From Acidobacterium sp. S8 (GTDB taxonomy: Bacteria > Acidobacteriota > Terriglobia > Terriglobales > Acidobacteriaceae), in contig NZ_LMUM01000028.1 of the NCBI RefSeq assembly GCF_009765985.1, positions 225,467-289,466 of the forward strand: a stretch of DNA of 64,000 bases. The letters are read 5' to 3'. Below are positions 9,497-17,438 of the stretch, one piece after another; the stretch's first letter is position 1; each line of letters begins with the position of its first letter. A program made the translations under genes and the position numbers. The notes under the pieces were generated by a model. That model was given only the letters and a program-made list of their open reading frames with translations, had not been told where the DNA came from and did no database searches.

Positions 9497-9578
9497 CCCA
9501 CCCTTTCGCAAAGTGCGCGAAAGAATGGGGCACCCATTTTGTGCGAACCGCAGGTTCCTCGGCTTCGCTCGGGATGAC
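9497..9578. repeat. Palindromic intergenic repeat, family 1, followed by part of family 2
   Basis: Positions 9497-9536 hold a family 1 copy: a CCCACCCTTTCGC arm, a short GCGCGAAAG inner palindrome and an AATGGGGCACCC arm. Positions 9554-9578 carry the half element TTCCTCGGCTTCGCTCGGGA followed by TGACA, which resembles one arm of family 2 (see 23851-23936). Both lie between the sigma operon and the GH78 gene. Confidence 0.7.
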
Positions 9579-9649: not shown

Positions 9650-12058
9650 ATGTTCCGCGTTCTTCTGATTGCTGCATTCTTTTTTGGGGCGGGTTTGAAC
9701 TGGGCGCAGGATGTGAAGCCGCTCAACCCTGCGTTGGTTGACAGTAAATGGCAGGCCCGATGGATTGCCTGCCCGAATGCTCCACAAAAAGATCTCGGCA
9801 TCTTTTATTTCCGCAAAGAATTTACGTTGAATTCTGTGCCCGAGCATTTCTGGGTGCATGTGAGCGCGGACAATCGCTTTCTGCTCCATGTGAATGGACA
9901 ATACGTGGGTGAAGGTCCGTCGCGTGGCGATCTGTTTCACTGGCGATTCGAGACGATCGATCTTGCGCCGTTCCTGCATACAGGCAAAAATTTGCTGGCG
10001 GCGACGGTCTGGAATTATGGCTCGCGCTCCCCGGTGGCGCAGATGAGCAACCGTTCCGGCTTTATGATGCAGGGCGATACGGAAGCCGAGAAGGATGTCG
10101 ATACCGATACGTCATGGTTGGTGAAACAGGAAAAAGGGCGCGGACTCGCGGCTACGAATGGAGTAGCCGGCTACTATGCGGCCGGGCCAGGTGAGAGTGT
10201 CGATGGCAGGTTGATTACCTGGGATTGGGATGCGGCTGCGGTGGCCGATGCGGGCTCATGGCATGCTCCTGAGACGATAGGCGGGGCTGCGATGCGTGAG
10301 GCACAGGACTCGGACAACAACTGGGAGCTGGTGCAGGATAAGTTGCCGGCGATGGAGCATCGGCTGGTAACTCCGGGAAAGCCTGTGCGATTTGAAGGGC
10401 TGGCTGCCAAGCCAAAGTTTCCGGGGTCTTCGTTGGAGATTCCAGCAAATACCCATGCGACGCTGCTACTCGACAATCAAGTGCTGCAAACGGCGTATCC
10501 AGAATTAGTGACGAGCGGCGGACGCGATGCGGAAATCAAGTTGACGTATGCCGAGGCTCTCTACGATGCGAAGGGCGAGAAGGGCAATCGCAACGAGATT
10601 GCGGGACGGCAGATTCAGGGCCTGACAGATGAGTTTATGCCGGATGGCGGCGAACGGCGGTCGTTTCAGCCGCTGTGGTGGCGGACGTGGCGTTATCTGC
10701 AGGTGGATGTAACGACGAAGTCTTCTCCATTGCGCCTCGAAAAACTGGATGCCTGGTTCAATGCATATCCGTTTGTAGAGAAGGCAACGATTGCGGGAGA
10801 TATTCCGGATTTGCAGAAGCTATGGGATACGGGCTGGCGCACGGCGCGTCTCTGCGCACATGAGACATACATGGACGCTCCTTATTGGGAGCAGCTGCAG
10901 TATGTTGGCGACACGCGGATACAGGCGCTCATTTCCTATGCGATGACGGGAGACAGCAGGCTGGCACGGCAGGCGATTACGAATATAGAGTCGTCGATTG
11001 TTCCTGAGGGGTTGACGCAGAGTCGCTATCCTTCGCGGCTGCCGCAGTTTATTCCGCCGTTTTCGCTGCTGTGGGTGGATATGTTGCACGACTACTGGAT
11101 GTATGTGAACGATGAGCCTCTGGTGCGTGAGACGCTGCCGCGCACGCGCGGCGTGATCGACTGGTATGCTTCGCACCTTCGTCCGGATGGGCTGATGGGA
11201 CGAGTGAAGTGGTGGGAGTTTGGCGACTGGACGAGCGGGTATGAGGGTGGTGATCCGCCACAGGAAGTGGATGGCGGATCGACATTCCTGACATTGCAGT
11301 TTATTGAGGCGTTACGTGATGCGGCAGAGTTGGAGAAGCAATTTGGTTCACCGGAGCGGACGGCTGCTTATCAAGGCATGATTCAAAAGGCTACAGATAC
11401 GCTGAACCGGCTGAACTGGGATGCGCGCTATGGCGTGTACGCTGATACTCCGGCAAAGAAGAGCTACAGCCAGCAAGCCAACGTGTTGGCGGTGTGGCAG
11501 GATGTGGCTCCGCGCGGCGAACAGCAGGCTGTTTTGCGCCGGGTATTGGGATCGCGCGAGGGGGCTGAGGCGACGGTGGACGGGAAGACGGTTCCGCCGA
11601 TGTCGGCGATGAGCTACTACTTCCGTTTCTATCTGAGCCGGGCTCTCGAACATGCCGGGCTTGCAGATTTATACGTGGGCCAGCTGACTCCCTGGTACGA
11701 CATGCTGAAGCTCGGGCTGTCGACCTGGGCGGAGAAGCCGGAGCCGACACGCTCGGATAGCCATGCGTGGAGCGCGCATCCTAACTACGATTTGTTGACG
11801 GTGGTGGCGGGGATTCATCCTGCTGCTCCCGGATTTTCAAAGGTCAGGATTGAGCCGCACTTGGGGAGTTTGCATGAGCTGCGGGCTTCGATGCCGCATG
11901 CTGGCGGGGCGATTACGGTCGATTACAGGCTGGATGGCGGGCGGTGGTCGACTTCGATTACTTTGCCTGAGGGGTTAAATGGGGAGTTGGTGTGGCTGGG
12001 GAAAGAGTATCCGCTGCACTCGGGGGCGCAGACGGTTCGGTTGGATGGTGGTCGGTAA
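9650..12058 (+). CDS. Secreted GH78-family glycosidase (alpha-L-rhamnosidase-like)
   Basis: An 802-residue exported protein. A signal peptide (residues 1-19, cleavage after NWA) is followed by an N-terminal beta-sandwich of the kind seen in family 78 (KWQARWIACPN, then FYFRKEFTL and FLLHVNGQYVGEGPSRGD). A second sandwich follows at about 240-360. The alpha/alpha-6 barrel begins near 390 with the typical DAPYWEQLQYVGDTRIQALI and contains the acidic segment WWEFGDWT. A C-terminal beta domain (PGFSKVRIEP, HAGGAITVDY) closes the protein. GH78 enzymes release rhamnose from plant polysaccharides or glycosides. Intergenic repeats flank it on both sides and it stands alone on its strand. Substrate specificity is not certain. 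Confidence 0.85.
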   Translation: MFRVLLIAAFFFGAGLNWAQDVKPLNPALVDSKWQARWIACPNAPQKDLGIFYFRKEFTLNSVPEHFWVHVSADNRFLLHVNGQYVGEGPSRGDLFHWRFETIDLAPFLHTGKNLLAATVWNYGSRSPVAQMSNRSGFMMQGDTEAEKDVDTDTSWLVKQEKGRGLAATNGVAGYYAAGPGESVDGRLITWDWDAAAVADAGSWHAPETIGGAAMREAQDSDNNWELVQDKLPAMEHRLVTPGKPVRFEGLAAKPKFPGSSLEIPANTHATLLLDNQVLQTAYPELVTSGGRDAEIKLTYAEALYDAKGEKGNRNEIAGRQIQGLTDEFMPDGGERRSFQPLWWRTWRYLQVDVTTKSSPLRLEKLDAWFNAYPFVEKATIAGDIPDLQKLWDTGWRTARLCAHETYMDAPYWEQLQYVGDTRIQALISYAMTGDSRLARQAITNIESSIVPEGLTQSRYPSRLPQFIPPFSLLWVDMLHDYWMYVNDEPLVRETLPRTRGVIDWYASHLRPDGLMGRVKWWEFGDWTSGYEGGDPPQEVDGGSTFLTLQFIEALRDAAELEKQFGSPERTAAYQGMIQKATDTLNRLNWDARYGVYADTPAKKSYSQQANVLAVWQDVAPRGEQQAVLRRVLGSREGAEATVDGKTVPPMSAMSYYFRFYLSRALEHAGLADLYVGQLTPWYDMLKLGLSTWAEKPEPTRSDSHAWSAHPNYDLLTVVAGIHPAAPGFSKVRIEPHLGSLHELRASMPHAGGAITVDYRLDGGRWSTSITLPEGLNGELVWLGKEYPLHSGAQTVRLDGGR

Positions 12059-12261: not shown

Positions 12262-14337
12262 CTATTCGTTGTCGTCGCGTTTGTAGGGTGTCTGCAGATA
12301 TTTGCGGGCTTCGTTGAGCGCGCCTTGCGTATTGTCGTTGGTTTGCAGGGCCTGCCGGTATTCGGGAACGGCGCGTTCGCGCTGGCCGGTGATATCGAAA
12401 ATTTTTCCGATCTGGATGTGGCTCCAGACTTCAGTCCACTTCGGCTCGTCATCGCCGCGCAGGGCATCGCGATAGGCGTTGATGGATGCCTGATAGTTGC
12501 GCATGGTAAAGAGCACTTCGCCGATGCGATAGCTGGCGAGTGAGCTGTTAGGGTTGGCCTTCAGCGCGTTCTGATATTCATCAAGGCCGCCGGTGTTGTC
12601 GCCCTGGGCTACGAGTTGCTGGCCGCGCAGAATATGAACGCGTACCTGCATGTCGGGTGAATTGGTCAGAATCCAGTTGTCCGGGTCGATGGTGATGTGG
12701 CGGGGACGGCCGAAGGTATCAACGACGAACTGCGAATCCGAGCCGACGACGTCGATGCGGCGGATTTCAGTTTTGCCGTCGGTTTCGATACGCAACTCGA
12801 CAGGCATGTTGAAGAGATCAAGGTCCTGCTGGATTTCACCGATGGTACGGAAGCCCTTGTTGTTACCGAGGCGGTAGACTGCGTATTTATTGTTGAATAA
12901 CGGAGCGCCGGTGCCGTCGAGCCATTGCGCGAAGAAGGGCGTGAGTTGCTGCTGCGATTGCGCTTCGGCTACCTTTTCAAAGTCGCTGGTCTTGATGGAT
13001 TTGTCGGTGAACTGCGAGAGCGTGGCGCGCAGAATCTTCAGGAAGCTGTCGTTTCCGACTTCCCAGCGCAGCATGTGGAAGACGAGAGAGCCTTTTTCCA
13101 ATGTCATGGATTGGAACTGCGGCGAGAATGGATCGAGCCGTCCGACGCTGGTCAGGGGAATAGTGTCATAGGCGAGCGCACCCGCGGAAACATCCTGAAT
13201 CGCCGCGTTCAACGCGCTGCGGCCGGCGCTGTCTTCCAGGTACATGAGCTCGCCATAGCGGGACATGCCGTTGGTGATCCAGGCGTCGTTGAGCGAGGCC
13301 GGACTGATCTCGCTGCCCCACCATTGATGGGAGATAGTATTGGCGAGCAGTCGCGTATCGTTGACCCTGGTGCCGATGTGCGTTCCGCCAATGGCAGCTA
13401 TCTCAGGCGCCCACGCTACAGGCATAGTGTCGGTTGGAAGCTCCACGACATTGAGTTGGGTAGACTCGGGAACTCCGAAATTGCTGGTGAAAAAGGCAAA
13501 TTCGTTGAGCGCGGTATGACCGTAATCCTGCGCGGATTGCTTGTGAGCTTCAGTGGTGTAGACGTGGATGTTCGGTGCGGGGGATAAGACTGAGAATTTC
13601 CCAGCGATGATAGTTCCGGGGAAGCCGGATTTTGCCCAGTGGAAATTGTGCTGCTCGCCTGCGGTCCCGTGAGAGATGTTGGTGGGGCCGCTGCCGATCA
13701 CCTGGTATCCGGAAGGGAGCGTGATATGGATGTCGGCGGCAAAGCGATCCGTCATATAGCCGACCATGGGAAACCAGCGTCCGGCATAGAGCAGGTAGCT
13801 GATGGGGTCGCCGACCTGTGCGAGCTTCAGCCCTTCGACCGGGCTGCCGGCATCGCCGTTGAGCATGCCGTCATAGGTAAAGACATACGTGTACTGATGG
13901 CCTTTGACGAGCGGAGCCGGAGGGGTGACGATGACGGTCGCGTTGGGACCGCGCTCGCCGGTCAGAGGTTTGCCGGATGTGTCGGCTACTTTTTCGACCT
14001 TGAGCGCGCCGTGCAATTCAAAAATCGCCGTATCGGTGTCATTGAGCGCCGTGAAGGTGACCTGCGCTGTCGCGGAAAGCTTGTGATCGGCGGGGCTGAG
14101 CTGCGCATTGATGGTGTAACCGGTGATGTCGAGGGTTGGCTTCAGCTGCTGCTGGGCTGGAAGAGTCAATGCAAATCCAAGCAGGATGGCCAAAGCAAAA
14201 GCCTGACCCCACCCCTTCGACAGGCTCAGGGCAGGCTCTTTCGCAAAAGCGCGAAAGGATGGGGCACTCAGGTTTTGAGCGCCAAGGTTGGGACACAGAA
14301 AGGACATGCCAAGGCAATTCATCATTCGCATCTTCAT
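12262..14337 (-). CDS. M1-peptidase-like protein with degenerate zinc site and C-terminal TPRs
   Basis: A 691-residue exported protein. Residues 64-260 match the beta-rich N-domain of M1 aminopeptidases and 270-530 the catalytic-domain fold. The zinc site is mostly lost. Where M1 enzymes have HExxH, this protein reads NTISHQWWGS (333-342), so the first His and the catalytic Glu are Asn and Thr; the third ligand Glu, 19 residues after His337, is Asn356 in DAWITNGMSRY. No GxMEN motif is evident. Tetratricopeptide repeats follow at about 575-690 (DEYQNALKANPNSSLASYRI). It probably binds peptides or acts as a scaffold and does not cleave. The start overlaps the lpxB stop (ATGA). The hydrophobic signal segment (45-60) is preceded by a long n-region coded by an intergenic repeat. 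Confidence 0.85.
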   Translation of the reverse strand: MKMRMMNCLGMSFLCPNLGAQNLSAPSFRAFAKEPALSLSKGWGQAFALAILLGFALTLPAQQQLKPTLDITGYTINAQLSPADHKLSATAQVTFTALNDTDTAIFELHGALKVEKVADTSGKPLTGERGPNATVIVTPPAPLVKGHQYTYVFTYDGMLNGDAGSPVEGLKLAQVGDPISYLLYAGRWFPMVGYMTDRFAADIHITLPSGYQVIGSGPTNISHGTAGEQHNFHWAKSGFPGTIIAGKFSVLSPAPNIHVYTTEAHKQSAQDYGHTALNEFAFFTSNFGVPESTQLNVVELPTDTMPVAWAPEIAAIGGTHIGTRVNDTRLLANTISHQWWGSEISPASLNDAWITNGMSRYGELMYLEDSAGRSALNAAIQDVSAGALAYDTIPLTSVGRLDPFSPQFQSMTLEKGSLVFHMLRWEVGNDSFLKILRATLSQFTDKSIKTSDFEKVAEAQSQQQLTPFFAQWLDGTGAPLFNNKYAVYRLGNNKGFRTIGEIQQDLDLFNMPVELRIETDGKTEIRRIDVVGSDSQFVVDTFGRPRHITIDPDNWILTNSPDMQVRVHILRGQQLVAQGDNTGGLDEYQNALKANPNSSLASYRIGEVLFTMRNYQASINAYRDALRGDDEPKWTEVWSHIQIGKIFDITGQRERAVPEYRQALQTNDNTQGALNEARKYLQTPYKRDDNE
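14206..14268. repeat. Repeat family 1 copy inside a coding sequence
   Basis: The ends CCCCACCCCTTCG and AAAGGATGGGGCAC and the inner TTCGCAAAAGCGCGAAAG match the intergenic family 1 repeats. A CAGGCTCAGGGCAGGCTC segment is inserted in the middle. The copy is read in frame as about residues 24-44 of the M1-like protein, just before its signal-peptide core. Confidence 0.75.
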
Positions 14338-15479
14338 CGTGCCGGACCCATTAACTCTAATGTGATGCTGGCTACCTGTTCTATTGGACTGGCTGCCGCA
14401 CGCAGCGAAGCGCCTAGCGCGGCCAGATCGGCCTGCATTTTGCTGCGGACCTTTTCATCATGCAGAAGGTTCTTAAGGTGTGAGAACACATTTGCGGCGG
14501 TAAAGTCGCTCTGAATCAGTTCGGGAACGATCTCTCGTCCGGCAATGAGATTGACCATGGCAACATGCGGGACCTTCACTACCCGCTTTGCAACAGAATA
14601 CGTCAAGCCGGAAACCCGGTAGACCACCATGAAGGGATTGCCGATCAGGGCGGCTTCGACGGTGGCGGTTCCGCTGGCTACCACGCTGGCACGGGCATGA
14701 TGCAGGGTGGCGCGGGCATCTTTAACAAGGGTAATACGCGGGTCCACTGCCGGGAGCATGGATTGGACGTGAGCGACTTGCTCGGATGTGAGGGTAGGCG
14801 CGAACGGCAAAACAAATTCGCAGGGCTCATGCAGTTGGCGGGCGGCTTCAATCATTTCCGGAAGGTTGAGGCGAATCTCCTTGAAGCGGCTGCCGGGGAG
14901 CAGACCCACCCATGGTATGGACGGGTCGAGACGGTATTGGTCTGCAAAGTCTTTTCGTGAGATGGAAGGCAGTGGAAGCTCAGCCAAAGGGTGGCCGACA
15001 AAGTTGGCCTCCACCTGGTGCTCCCGGTAGAACGCCTCTTCAAAGGGAAAGATGACAAGCATGCGATCCACATAGCGCTGTACGCGGCGGATGCGGTACT
15101 TCTTCCACGCCCAGAGCTGCGGGCTGACGAAGTAGATGACCGGGATGCCGAGCTTGTGCAGGGTGCGAGCGAGCGAGAGGTTGACGTCGGGGAAGTCGAT
15201 GAGGATGGCGGCATCGGGTTTTTCTCTGGCGATGCTGGCTTTGAGCTTGCGGTATTCGCCGTAGATGCGGGGAATGTGGCGAATGATTTCCGTGATGCCC
15301 ATAACGGCTACGTCTTCGGCGCGCACGATGCGGCGGAAGCCGAGGGCTTCCATGCGCTGGCCTCCCAGCCCGAAGAATTCAGCGTTGGGAGAGAGTTTGC
15401 GGATGGCAGGGATGAGCTGGGCTGCGTAGTGTTCTCCGCTGGCCTCGCCAGCGGAGATGAAGATTTTAGGATGAGCCAT
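14334..15479 (-). CDS. lpxB: Lipid-A-disaccharide synthase LpxB
   Basis: A 381-residue GT-B fold glycosyltransferase (GT19) that joins UDP-diacylglucosamine to lipid X to form the lipid A disaccharide at the inner face of the inner membrane. Diagnostic segments are ISAGEASGEHYAAQLI at the N-terminus, FFGLGGQRMEALGF, the IDFPDVNLSLA block, FVSPQLWAWKKYRI and the C-domain GLLPGSRFKEI. The GTATVEAAL segment and PFMVVYRVSGLTY also match the family. Length is normal. It sits 6 bases after an ABC exporter gene and overlaps the following M1-like gene by 4 bases, so all are probably one transcript. It shows that the organism makes lipopolysaccharide. Confidence 0.97.
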   Translation of the reverse strand: MAHPKIFISAGEASGEHYAAQLIPAIRKLSPNAEFFGLGGQRMEALGFRRIVRAEDVAVMGITEIIRHIPRIYGEYRKLKASIAREKPDAAILIDFPDVNLSLARTLHKLGIPVIYFVSPQLWAWKKYRIRRVQRYVDRMLVIFPFEEAFYREHQVEANFVGHPLAELPLPSISRKDFADQYRLDPSIPWVGLLPGSRFKEIRLNLPEMIEAARQLHEPCEFVLPFAPTLTSEQVAHVQSMLPAVDPRITLVKDARATLHHARASVVASGTATVEAALIGNPFMVVYRVSGLTYSVAKRVVKVPHVAMVNLIAGREIVPELIQSDFTAANVFSHLKNLLHDEKVRSKMQADLAALGASLRAAASPIEQVASITLELMGPAR

Positions 15480-15485
15480 GCTCGG

Positions 15486-17438
15486 TTAGTCGGTCCCCAT
15501 GGCGAGGCTAGGGTTGAGGGACGGTAGCGTTTCTGAGAACTCCTGATCTTTGTACTGGAGCTGATAGAGCTTCCAGTAGAGTCCGCGCTGGGCGAGCAGT
15601 TCCTGGTGCGTGCCCATTTCTCGAAGCTGGCCTTTGTGCATAACGAGGATGGTGTCGGCGCGCTGGACGGTAGAGAGGCGGTGCGCGATGACGACCGAGG
15701 TGCGGCCTTCGATCATGCGTTCGAGCGCGAGACGGACGCGCATCTCCGTTTCGGTATCAACGCTGGAAGTGGCTTCATCGAGGATAAGGATTCTAGGGTC
15801 GTGCGCGAGGGCGCGGGCGAAGTTGATGAGCTGCTTCTGGCCGGTGGAAAGTCCGCTGCCGCGCTCCCGTACCGGCTCGGCGAAACCTTCGGGTAGCGAC
15901 TGGATGAAATCGCGGACTTTGACTTCATCGGCTGCTTCTTCGAGTCGCGCGTCGGAGATCCAGTCAGAGCCGAGGCGGATGTTGTCGGCGATCGTCCCGC
16001 TAAAGAGGAACGGGTCCTGCAGAACGACTCCGAAGCGTCGGCGGAGCTGATTGAGATCGTGTTCGCGCACGTCGACGCCGTCGATGAGGATGCTGCCGTG
16101 CTGAATATCGTAAAAGCGCATCATCAGGCTGATGATGGTGGTCTTGCCTGCGCCCGTGTGGCCAACGATGGCGGCAGTCTGGTCGGGTTCGACGGTGAAG
16201 GAGACGCCGCGGAGGATCCATTCAATGTCTGGCATCGCTGCCAGCTCGGCTGCGCTAGCTCTTGCGATCTGCGTGAGCTGTGCTTCGTCCAGGCGCTGGT
16301 ACGTGAACCAGACGTTTTGGAATTCGATGCGCCCTGAGTGATCGCTCTCTTTGGGCTGTGCGGGGGAGACGATCTCCGGCGCTGTGTCGAGAAGCTTGAA
16401 AATGCGCTCGCTGGCGGCCATGGCGGCCTGCAGAATGTTGTATTTCTCGCTCAGGTCCTGAATCGGGCGGAAGAAGCGCTGCGCATATTGCATGAAGGCG
16501 ACGAGCACGCCGATGGTGACGGTGGTGTGCAGCACGCCGTATCCGCCGCGCCAGATGACCAGCGCAATGGCGATGGAGCTGAGGATTTCGACAGCCGGGT
16601 AATAGAGCGCATAAGCAAGGATCGCGTCTTTGAATGCGTCCATGTGCTGTTGGTTGACGGCCTTGAATTCCTTGTAGGAGCGGTCCTGTCGGTTGAAGAG
16701 CTGTACCACGGTCATGCCGCTGATGTGTTCCTGTGTATAGGAATTAATGCGGGCGATGGCGGAGCGAATGCGGCGGTAGGAATCGCGGACATGCTTGCGG
16801 AAGACGCGGGTCACGATCAGAATGAGCGGCAGAACGGCAAACGAGAGCAGCGCCAGCCACCAGTTCATGCGCAGCATAACGAGGACGATACCGGCGAGCA
16901 CGAAAACGTCTTCAAAGATGGCAAAGACGCCGGAGGTGAACATTTCGTTCAGCGCGTCTACGTCGCTGGTAAGGCGCGTGACCAGGCGTCCGACCGGATT
17001 GCGGTCGAAGTAGCCAATATGCATGTGCTGCAGATGACGGAAGATCTCGCTCCGCATGTCGAACATGACCTTCTGGCCAGTCCACTGCATGAGGTAAGTC
17101 TGCACGAATTCAAGGAGATAGCTCAGAAGCAGGGAAGCGAGATAGAGCCCGGCGAGCTGGGTAATCCCGGTAAAAGCGTTTGAGCTGAGGTGCCCAGCCA
17201 GCCATGACGATTTGGCCGTGTTCTTCGTCATGTAGCGATCGACGGCGACCTTGGTGAGATAAGGACCGAGGACGTCAGCGCTGGCTTTAATCAGAATAGC
17301 GACGAGCGAAATAAAAGCGGGCAGCTTGTAGGGATAAAGGTAACGGATGAGGCGGCGCATCAGACGGCCGTCATAAGCCTTGCCGACGACGTCATCCTCA
17401 TGCTGCTGCGTTTGCTTCGGCTTTTCCTTGTCGGCCAT
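15486..17438 (-). CDS. ABC exporter with fused membrane and ATPase domains (MsbA-like)
   Basis: A 650-residue half-transporter. The N-terminal six-helix exporter domain spans about residues 35-350 and the nucleotide-binding domain about 370-610. Visible motifs are Walker A GHTGAGKTT (426-434), the Q-loop VVLQDPFLF, a degenerate signature LSTGQKQ in place of LSGGQ, Walker B ILILDEATSS and the H-loop IAHRLSTV. A 25-residue charged insertion (RLDEAQLTQIARASAAELAA) sits between the first two strands of the ATPase domain, before the Walker A motif. Six bases separate it from lpxB, so a role as a lipid A or lipid flippase is a reasonable inference; multidrug export is the alternative. It should work as a dimer. 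Confidence 0.9.
   Translation of the reverse strand: MADKEKPKQTQQHEDDVVGKAYDGRLMRRLIRYLYPYKLPAFISLVAILIKASADVLGPYLTKVAVDRYMTKNTAKSSWLAGHLSSNAFTGITQLAGLYLASLLLSYLLEFVQTYLMQWTGQKVMFDMRSEIFRHLQHMHIGYFDRNPVGRLVTRLTSDVDALNEMFTSGVFAIFEDVFVLAGIVLVMLRMNWWLALLSFAVLPLILIVTRVFRKHVRDSYRRIRSAIARINSYTQEHISGMTVVQLFNRQDRSYKEFKAVNQQHMDAFKDAILAYALYYPAVEILSSIAIALVIWRGGYGVLHTTVTIGVLVAFMQYAQRFFRPIQDLSEKYNILQAAMAASERIFKLLDTAPEIVSPAQPKESDHSGRIEFQNVWFTYQRLDEAQLTQIARASAAELAAMPDIEWILRGVSFTVEPDQTAAIVGHTGAGKTTIISLMMRFYDIQHGSILIDGVDVREHDLNQLRRRFGVVLQDPFLFSGTIADNIRLGSDWISDARLEEAADEVKVRDFIQSLPEGFAEPVRERGSGLSTGQKQLINFARALAHDPRILILDEATSSVDTETEMRVRLALERMIEGRTSVVIAHRLSTVQRADTILVMHKGQLREMGTHQELLAQRGLYWKLYQLQYKDQEFSETLPSLNPSLAMGTD

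Follow-up and report, generated by a model that had tools for sequence, protein, structure and literature searches.

An lpxB-linked M1 pseudopeptidase with a TPR domain in Acidobacteriota and its putative role in outer-membrane biogenesis

Within a 64,000-nucleotide stretch of the Acidobacterium sp. S8 genome (contig NZ_LMUM01000028.1, positions 225,467 to 289,466; hereafter the window), we found that the gene at 12262-14337 encodes a 691-residue protein in which an M1 aminopeptidase fold that lacks its catalytic site is joined to a C-terminal tetratricopeptide repeat (TPR) domain, directly downstream of lpxB. Judging from this linkage, the predicted export, and the architecture, we consider it probable that the protein is a non-catalytic, chaperone-like scaffold whose client belongs to lipopolysaccharide (LPS) or outer-membrane biogenesis. 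The protein and its parts, all on the minus strand, are listed with the evidence that delimits each.

12262-14337, minus strand: exported M1 pseudopeptidase-TPR protein (predicted), 691 residues; open reading frame (ORF), Pfam, AlphaFold model, fold search
14152-14337, minus strand: residues 1-62, a Sec-type signal-peptide region as judged by inspection and comparison of N-termini; extended by a REP-like repeat
13648-14139, minus strand: M1 N-terminal beta domain, residues 67-230; AlphaFold model, fold search
12898-13647, minus strand: M1 catalytic-like domain, residues 231-480; Pfam, AlphaFold model, fold search
13327-13341, minus strand: NTISH (residues 333-337) where HExxH is expected; alignment with M1 enzymes
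13270-13272, minus strand: Asn356 where the third zinc ligand, Glu, is expected; alignment with M1 enzymes
13099-13101, minus strand: Leu413 where the catalytic Tyr is expected; family alignment
12658-12897, minus strand: beta-sandwich domain, residues 481-560; alignment, AlphaFold model
12265-12657, minus strand: C-terminal TPR domain, residues 561-691, the best conserved part of the family; Pfam, alignment, dN/dS

An M1 fold without the M1 catalytic site

The protein belongs to the M1 fold superfamily, as a first-pass annotation had proposed from the letters alone. Pfam placed PF01433 (Peptidase_M1) at residues 330-472 (E 2.6e-13; 50.5 bits against a cut-off of 27.7) and TPR_2 along with other TPR families at residues 566-667; the same scan of the 691 residues returned no M48 match, the peptidase domain being M1. 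The predicted three-domain M1 fold is not in doubt, because the AlphaFold model of residues 62-691 (pLDDT 82.6, pTM 0.79) matched solved M1 enzymes at Z scores of about 37-39, including 38.9 to tricorn F3 and 38.8 to LTA4H.

When aligned with active M1 enzymes, N333-T-I-S-H337 fell in the place of HExxH and N356 in that of the third-ligand Glu, the same replacements that the annotation had read by eye, and the surrounding scaffold was intact as it had described (HQWWG and DxWxxxG, with Q338, W339, D351, W353, and G357 present). An alternative site elsewhere in the chain, a possibility the annotation had itself raised, was ruled out, since no second HExxH was found anywhere in the 691 residues. 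Two further losses went beyond what had been checked at that stage. Specifically, the catalytic-Tyr column, which lies before the KG motif, held Tyr in 13 of 13 active relatives and L413 in the window protein, and the GAMEN exopeptidase loop was replaced by AWAPEIA, although the loop alignment is less certain than that of the zinc site. None of the hallmarks of an active M1 peptidase that we tested, from zinc ligands and general base to Tyr and GAMEN, is intact in the protein.

The gene is nevertheless kept by selection, whose strength peaks in the beta-sandwich and TPR domains, away from the former active site. By mean pairwise identity the TPR domain ranked highest (45%), followed by the beta-sandwich (40%) and the two M1 parts (31% each). 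The ratio of nonsynonymous to synonymous substitution rates (dN/dS) against a congener (L007) was 0.061 overall, 0.026 in the TPR domain, and 0.015 in the sandwich, values that are rough given a dS near 1; the analysis covered L007 and, in part, a second congener (L006). We also considered a pseudogene or sequencing artefact and rejected it, as the ORFs were intact in most genomes and dN/dS was 0.06.

A family across the Acidobacteriota, mostly adjoining lpxB

Strong orthologues were present in 57 of the 60 relatives searched; two of the three exceptions were incomplete assemblies and the third (G015) was 99% complete. Our wider search, confined to the phylum Acidobacteriota, recovered about 97 full-length members among 297 genomes, many of them outside the class, and these were clearly apart in score from ordinary M1 proteins. 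One doubtful sequence (L252), which reads HEHE at the zinc site but scored weakly and had no lpxB seen, was omitted from the counts. In a tree built without the motif columns, by a quick method with no bootstrap, the members formed one side of a branch separating them from active M1 enzymes (SH-aLRT 96). By this reconstruction the family is one clade apart from the active M1s, spread across much of the phylum. A second pseudopeptidase copy in one genome (L024/L082, G032:C35) did not adjoin lpxB. Literature searches on an acidobacterial lpxB-linked peptidase yielded no description of the family; pseudopeptidases are known as a kind, and here the distribution is unusually wide and operon-linked.

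Two genes lie upstream in the window:

14334-15479, minus strand: lpxB, lipid-A-disaccharide synthase (TIGR00215, 277 bits, over cut-off), its stop overlapping the pseudopeptidase ATG (ATGA)
15486-17438, minus strand: MsbA-like ABC transporter gene, located upstream of lpxB; its top NCBIfam hit was TIGR02203 MsbA_lipidA (441 bits, below the cut-off of 602)

In every one of the 78 named-genome loci unbroken by a contig end, the gene immediately upstream, in the same orientation, was lpxB. This was also true of 50 of the 55 loci in a relatives set in which each locus was counted once; the named genomes are all close relatives, and the two sets overlap in part. Outside the class, the arrangement held in 19 of 40 loci fetched, all from a clade with RRYD-type zinc sites in which other neighbours differ (mnmA is upstream in L218). 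An MsbA-like transporter gene was often near lpxB across the family. The annotation reported translational coupling with lpxB; the ATGA overlap is indeed real in the window, but it was allowed in only 22 of 132 loci, those of close relatives and some others, whereas adjacency was far wider. That adjacency strengthens the envelope role at which lpxB had hinted.

The link to lipid A might still be positional only, the protein being a general periplasmic quality-control or signalling scaffold that is co-transcribed with lpxB by chance, and to this explanation we give a minor but appreciable weight. It is favored by a clade with REYQ-type sites, which retains the protein in a position not adjoining lpxB (17 loci fetched), so that the link is not absolute, and by the variation of other neighbours between classes. 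Co-occurrence says little, because nearly all genomes have lpxB (272 of 297). Against the positional explanation, no neighbour other than lpxB was retained across clades with proteins about 30% identical.

Decay of the zinc site across the family

The annotation had pointed to the homologues' columns 333, 334, 337, and 356, and there the replacements proved to be family-wide. Columns 333, 334, 337, 356, and 413 varied, whereas Q338, W339, D351, W353, G357, and K415 were 92-100% kept among 62 members. The combination HEHE at the four zinc-site positions, found in all active relatives, occurred in 1 of 61 tree members (L039, from G059), while the remainder differed by clade and carried NTH[N/D], DEQY, REYQ, RRYD, or other sets. 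That single clear exception has a complete HELAH-X18-E and is still downstream of lpxB, but is without the catalytic Tyr and GAMEN. Plain parsimony on the zinc site required two changes, one loss and one regain; because L039 is nested in the tree, there would have been at least some eight independent losses if one takes it as improbable that all three residues were regained.

The lack of M1 peptidase chemistry, as judged from these alignments, is well supported, because the loss of the catalytic set is family-wide, with 60 of 61 tree members lacking the full ligand and base set, and occurs under strong purifying selection. The non-peptidase function that the annotation had deduced from one sequence is thereby supported.

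A different fate for the cleft would be its reuse for other chemistry, or another metal, through newly conserved residues, such as Asn333, His337, and Asn/Asp356 in Acidobacteriaceae and an Asp-Glu-Gln-Tyr set in a second family. In line with this, among 57 Acidobacteriaceae sequences Thr334 was invariant and Asn333 and Asn356 were each at least 90% conserved. Yet His337 was often Arg (in about 17 family sequences), and the replacement set differed by clade, which is ill-suited to one new active site; we therefore regard such reuse as unlikely. Least credible, to the point of being very improbable, is that the protein has remained a peptidase, either through an unusual metal site or with residues supplied by an activating partner: the fold and cleft scaffold are intact and L039 keeps its motif, but the window protein has lost ligands, base, Tyr, and GAMEN alike, and the invariant Thr334 leaves no general base at that position.

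A putative scaffold for LPS or outer-membrane assembly

The homologues' N-termini were signal-peptide-like by inspection, with AxA-type ends, and the protein is thus probably exported to the periplasm. There, an M1 body devoid of zinc, general base, catalytic Tyr, and GAMEN loop, fused to a TPR superhelix, would act as a scaffold, the TPR surface and dead cleft together binding an extended protein segment. Peptide or envelope-protein binding through the TPRs, as the annotation suggested, would fit with the TPR being the most conserved domain. The client would belong to LPS or outer-membrane biogenesis, with the pseudopeptidase made together with lipid A via the lpxB operon, and the most likely mechanism would resemble that of BepA: chaperone-like help while an outer-membrane protein, LptD for example, is being assembled.

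BepA of Escherichia coli is a periplasmic M48-TPR protein with a chaperone-like role in LptD maturation, and its TPR domain contacts LptD (PMC8423444). Like the window protein it is exported and has a metallopeptidase body followed by a C-terminal TPR, with a presumed link to LPS biogenesis; unlike it, BepA is an M48 enzyme, catalytically competent, and encoded outside an lpxB operon. The functional likeness is putative; the window protein is not a BepA, which is its nearest working model only. LptD is encoded in the genome, and no TPR match was found in the three M48 proteins scanned (L275, L276, and L277, the soluble or large M48s), which leaves room for a BepA-like factor without proving one. 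LptD as the specific client, argued by analogy, is a doubtful proposal.

Other M1 and TPR proteins offer partial parallels. The M1 aminopeptidases (PF01433; LTA4H, tricorn F3, PepN, ERAP1/IRAP) share the N-terminal, catalytic-like, and beta domain folds along with HQWWG and DxWxxxG, but differ in retaining the zinc ligands, base, Tyr, and GAMEN that the window protein is without; the latter is also exported and has a TPR in place of their HEAT/ARM-like C-terminal domain. LapB/YciM and other LPS-control factors are TPR proteins tied to LPS synthesis, although LapB has no M1 domain and is membrane-anchored, facing the cytoplasm. The yeast pseudo-M1 protein Tma108, listed as an M1 pseudopeptidase in a 2024 review, is thought to be non-enzymatic and to bind protein chains through its cleft, an example of how binding can be the working mode of an M1 body (PMC11266112). 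In contrast to the window protein, Tma108 is eukaryotic, cytosolic, and ribosome-associated, keeps HExxH-X18-E, and has no TPR.

Several points weigh against the scaffold interpretation. The zinc motif kept by L039 and the separation from lpxB in the REYQ clade both depart from it, and neighbouring genes may simply have inherited their order. Because BepA E137Q restores LptD maturation only partly (PMC8423444), a protease that has lost its activity may fall short of a full chaperone. The case is also built wholly from sequences and models.

With these points set against it, the scaffold role is still the interpretation we favor. More tentatively, the family may be the Acidobacteriota's own LPS or outer-membrane assembly chaperone, derived from an M1 peptidase in parallel to BepA from M48, whose catalytic site decayed many times independently across the phylum while the scaffold and the TPR domain persisted, as for the most part did the lpxB linkage. 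As a conserved partner of lpxB, the gene is a concrete candidate for a factor that assembles LPS or the outer membrane in a phylum that is abundant in soil and whose outer-membrane assembly is little studied. The family is, moreover, a rare natural series in which a catalytic site has decayed while the M1 scaffold stayed, and L039, with its full zinc site, is available for comparison.

The lengthened signal region and other observations

A REP-like dispersed repeat falls within the 5′ end of the ORF:

14214-14285 (approximate limits), no strand assigned: REP-like dispersed repeat, matches at 14215-14266

It sits in frame within the first ~45 residues, yielding a PALSLSKG stretch, and related copies occur near 9498, 12089, and 23268. 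The congeners L006 and L007 are without this insertion.

Elsewhere in the genome, another M1 protein (L001) carries the canonical HEMAH...E and L003 carries HEIGH...E, whereas the M1-like protein L004 (G000:C27:427951-428367) reads HSMAH and so lacks the Glu that serves as general base; L270 contains a protein resembling L004. The M48 peptidase L275 (G000:C23:223198-223743) is encoded ~1.7 kb before the window start and has a signal-peptide-like N-terminus and no TPR match. Finally, an 802-residue protein encoded at 9650-12058 had no NCBIfam match at 1e-8 and looks by eye like an alpha-L-rhamnosidase-type glycoside hydrolase.
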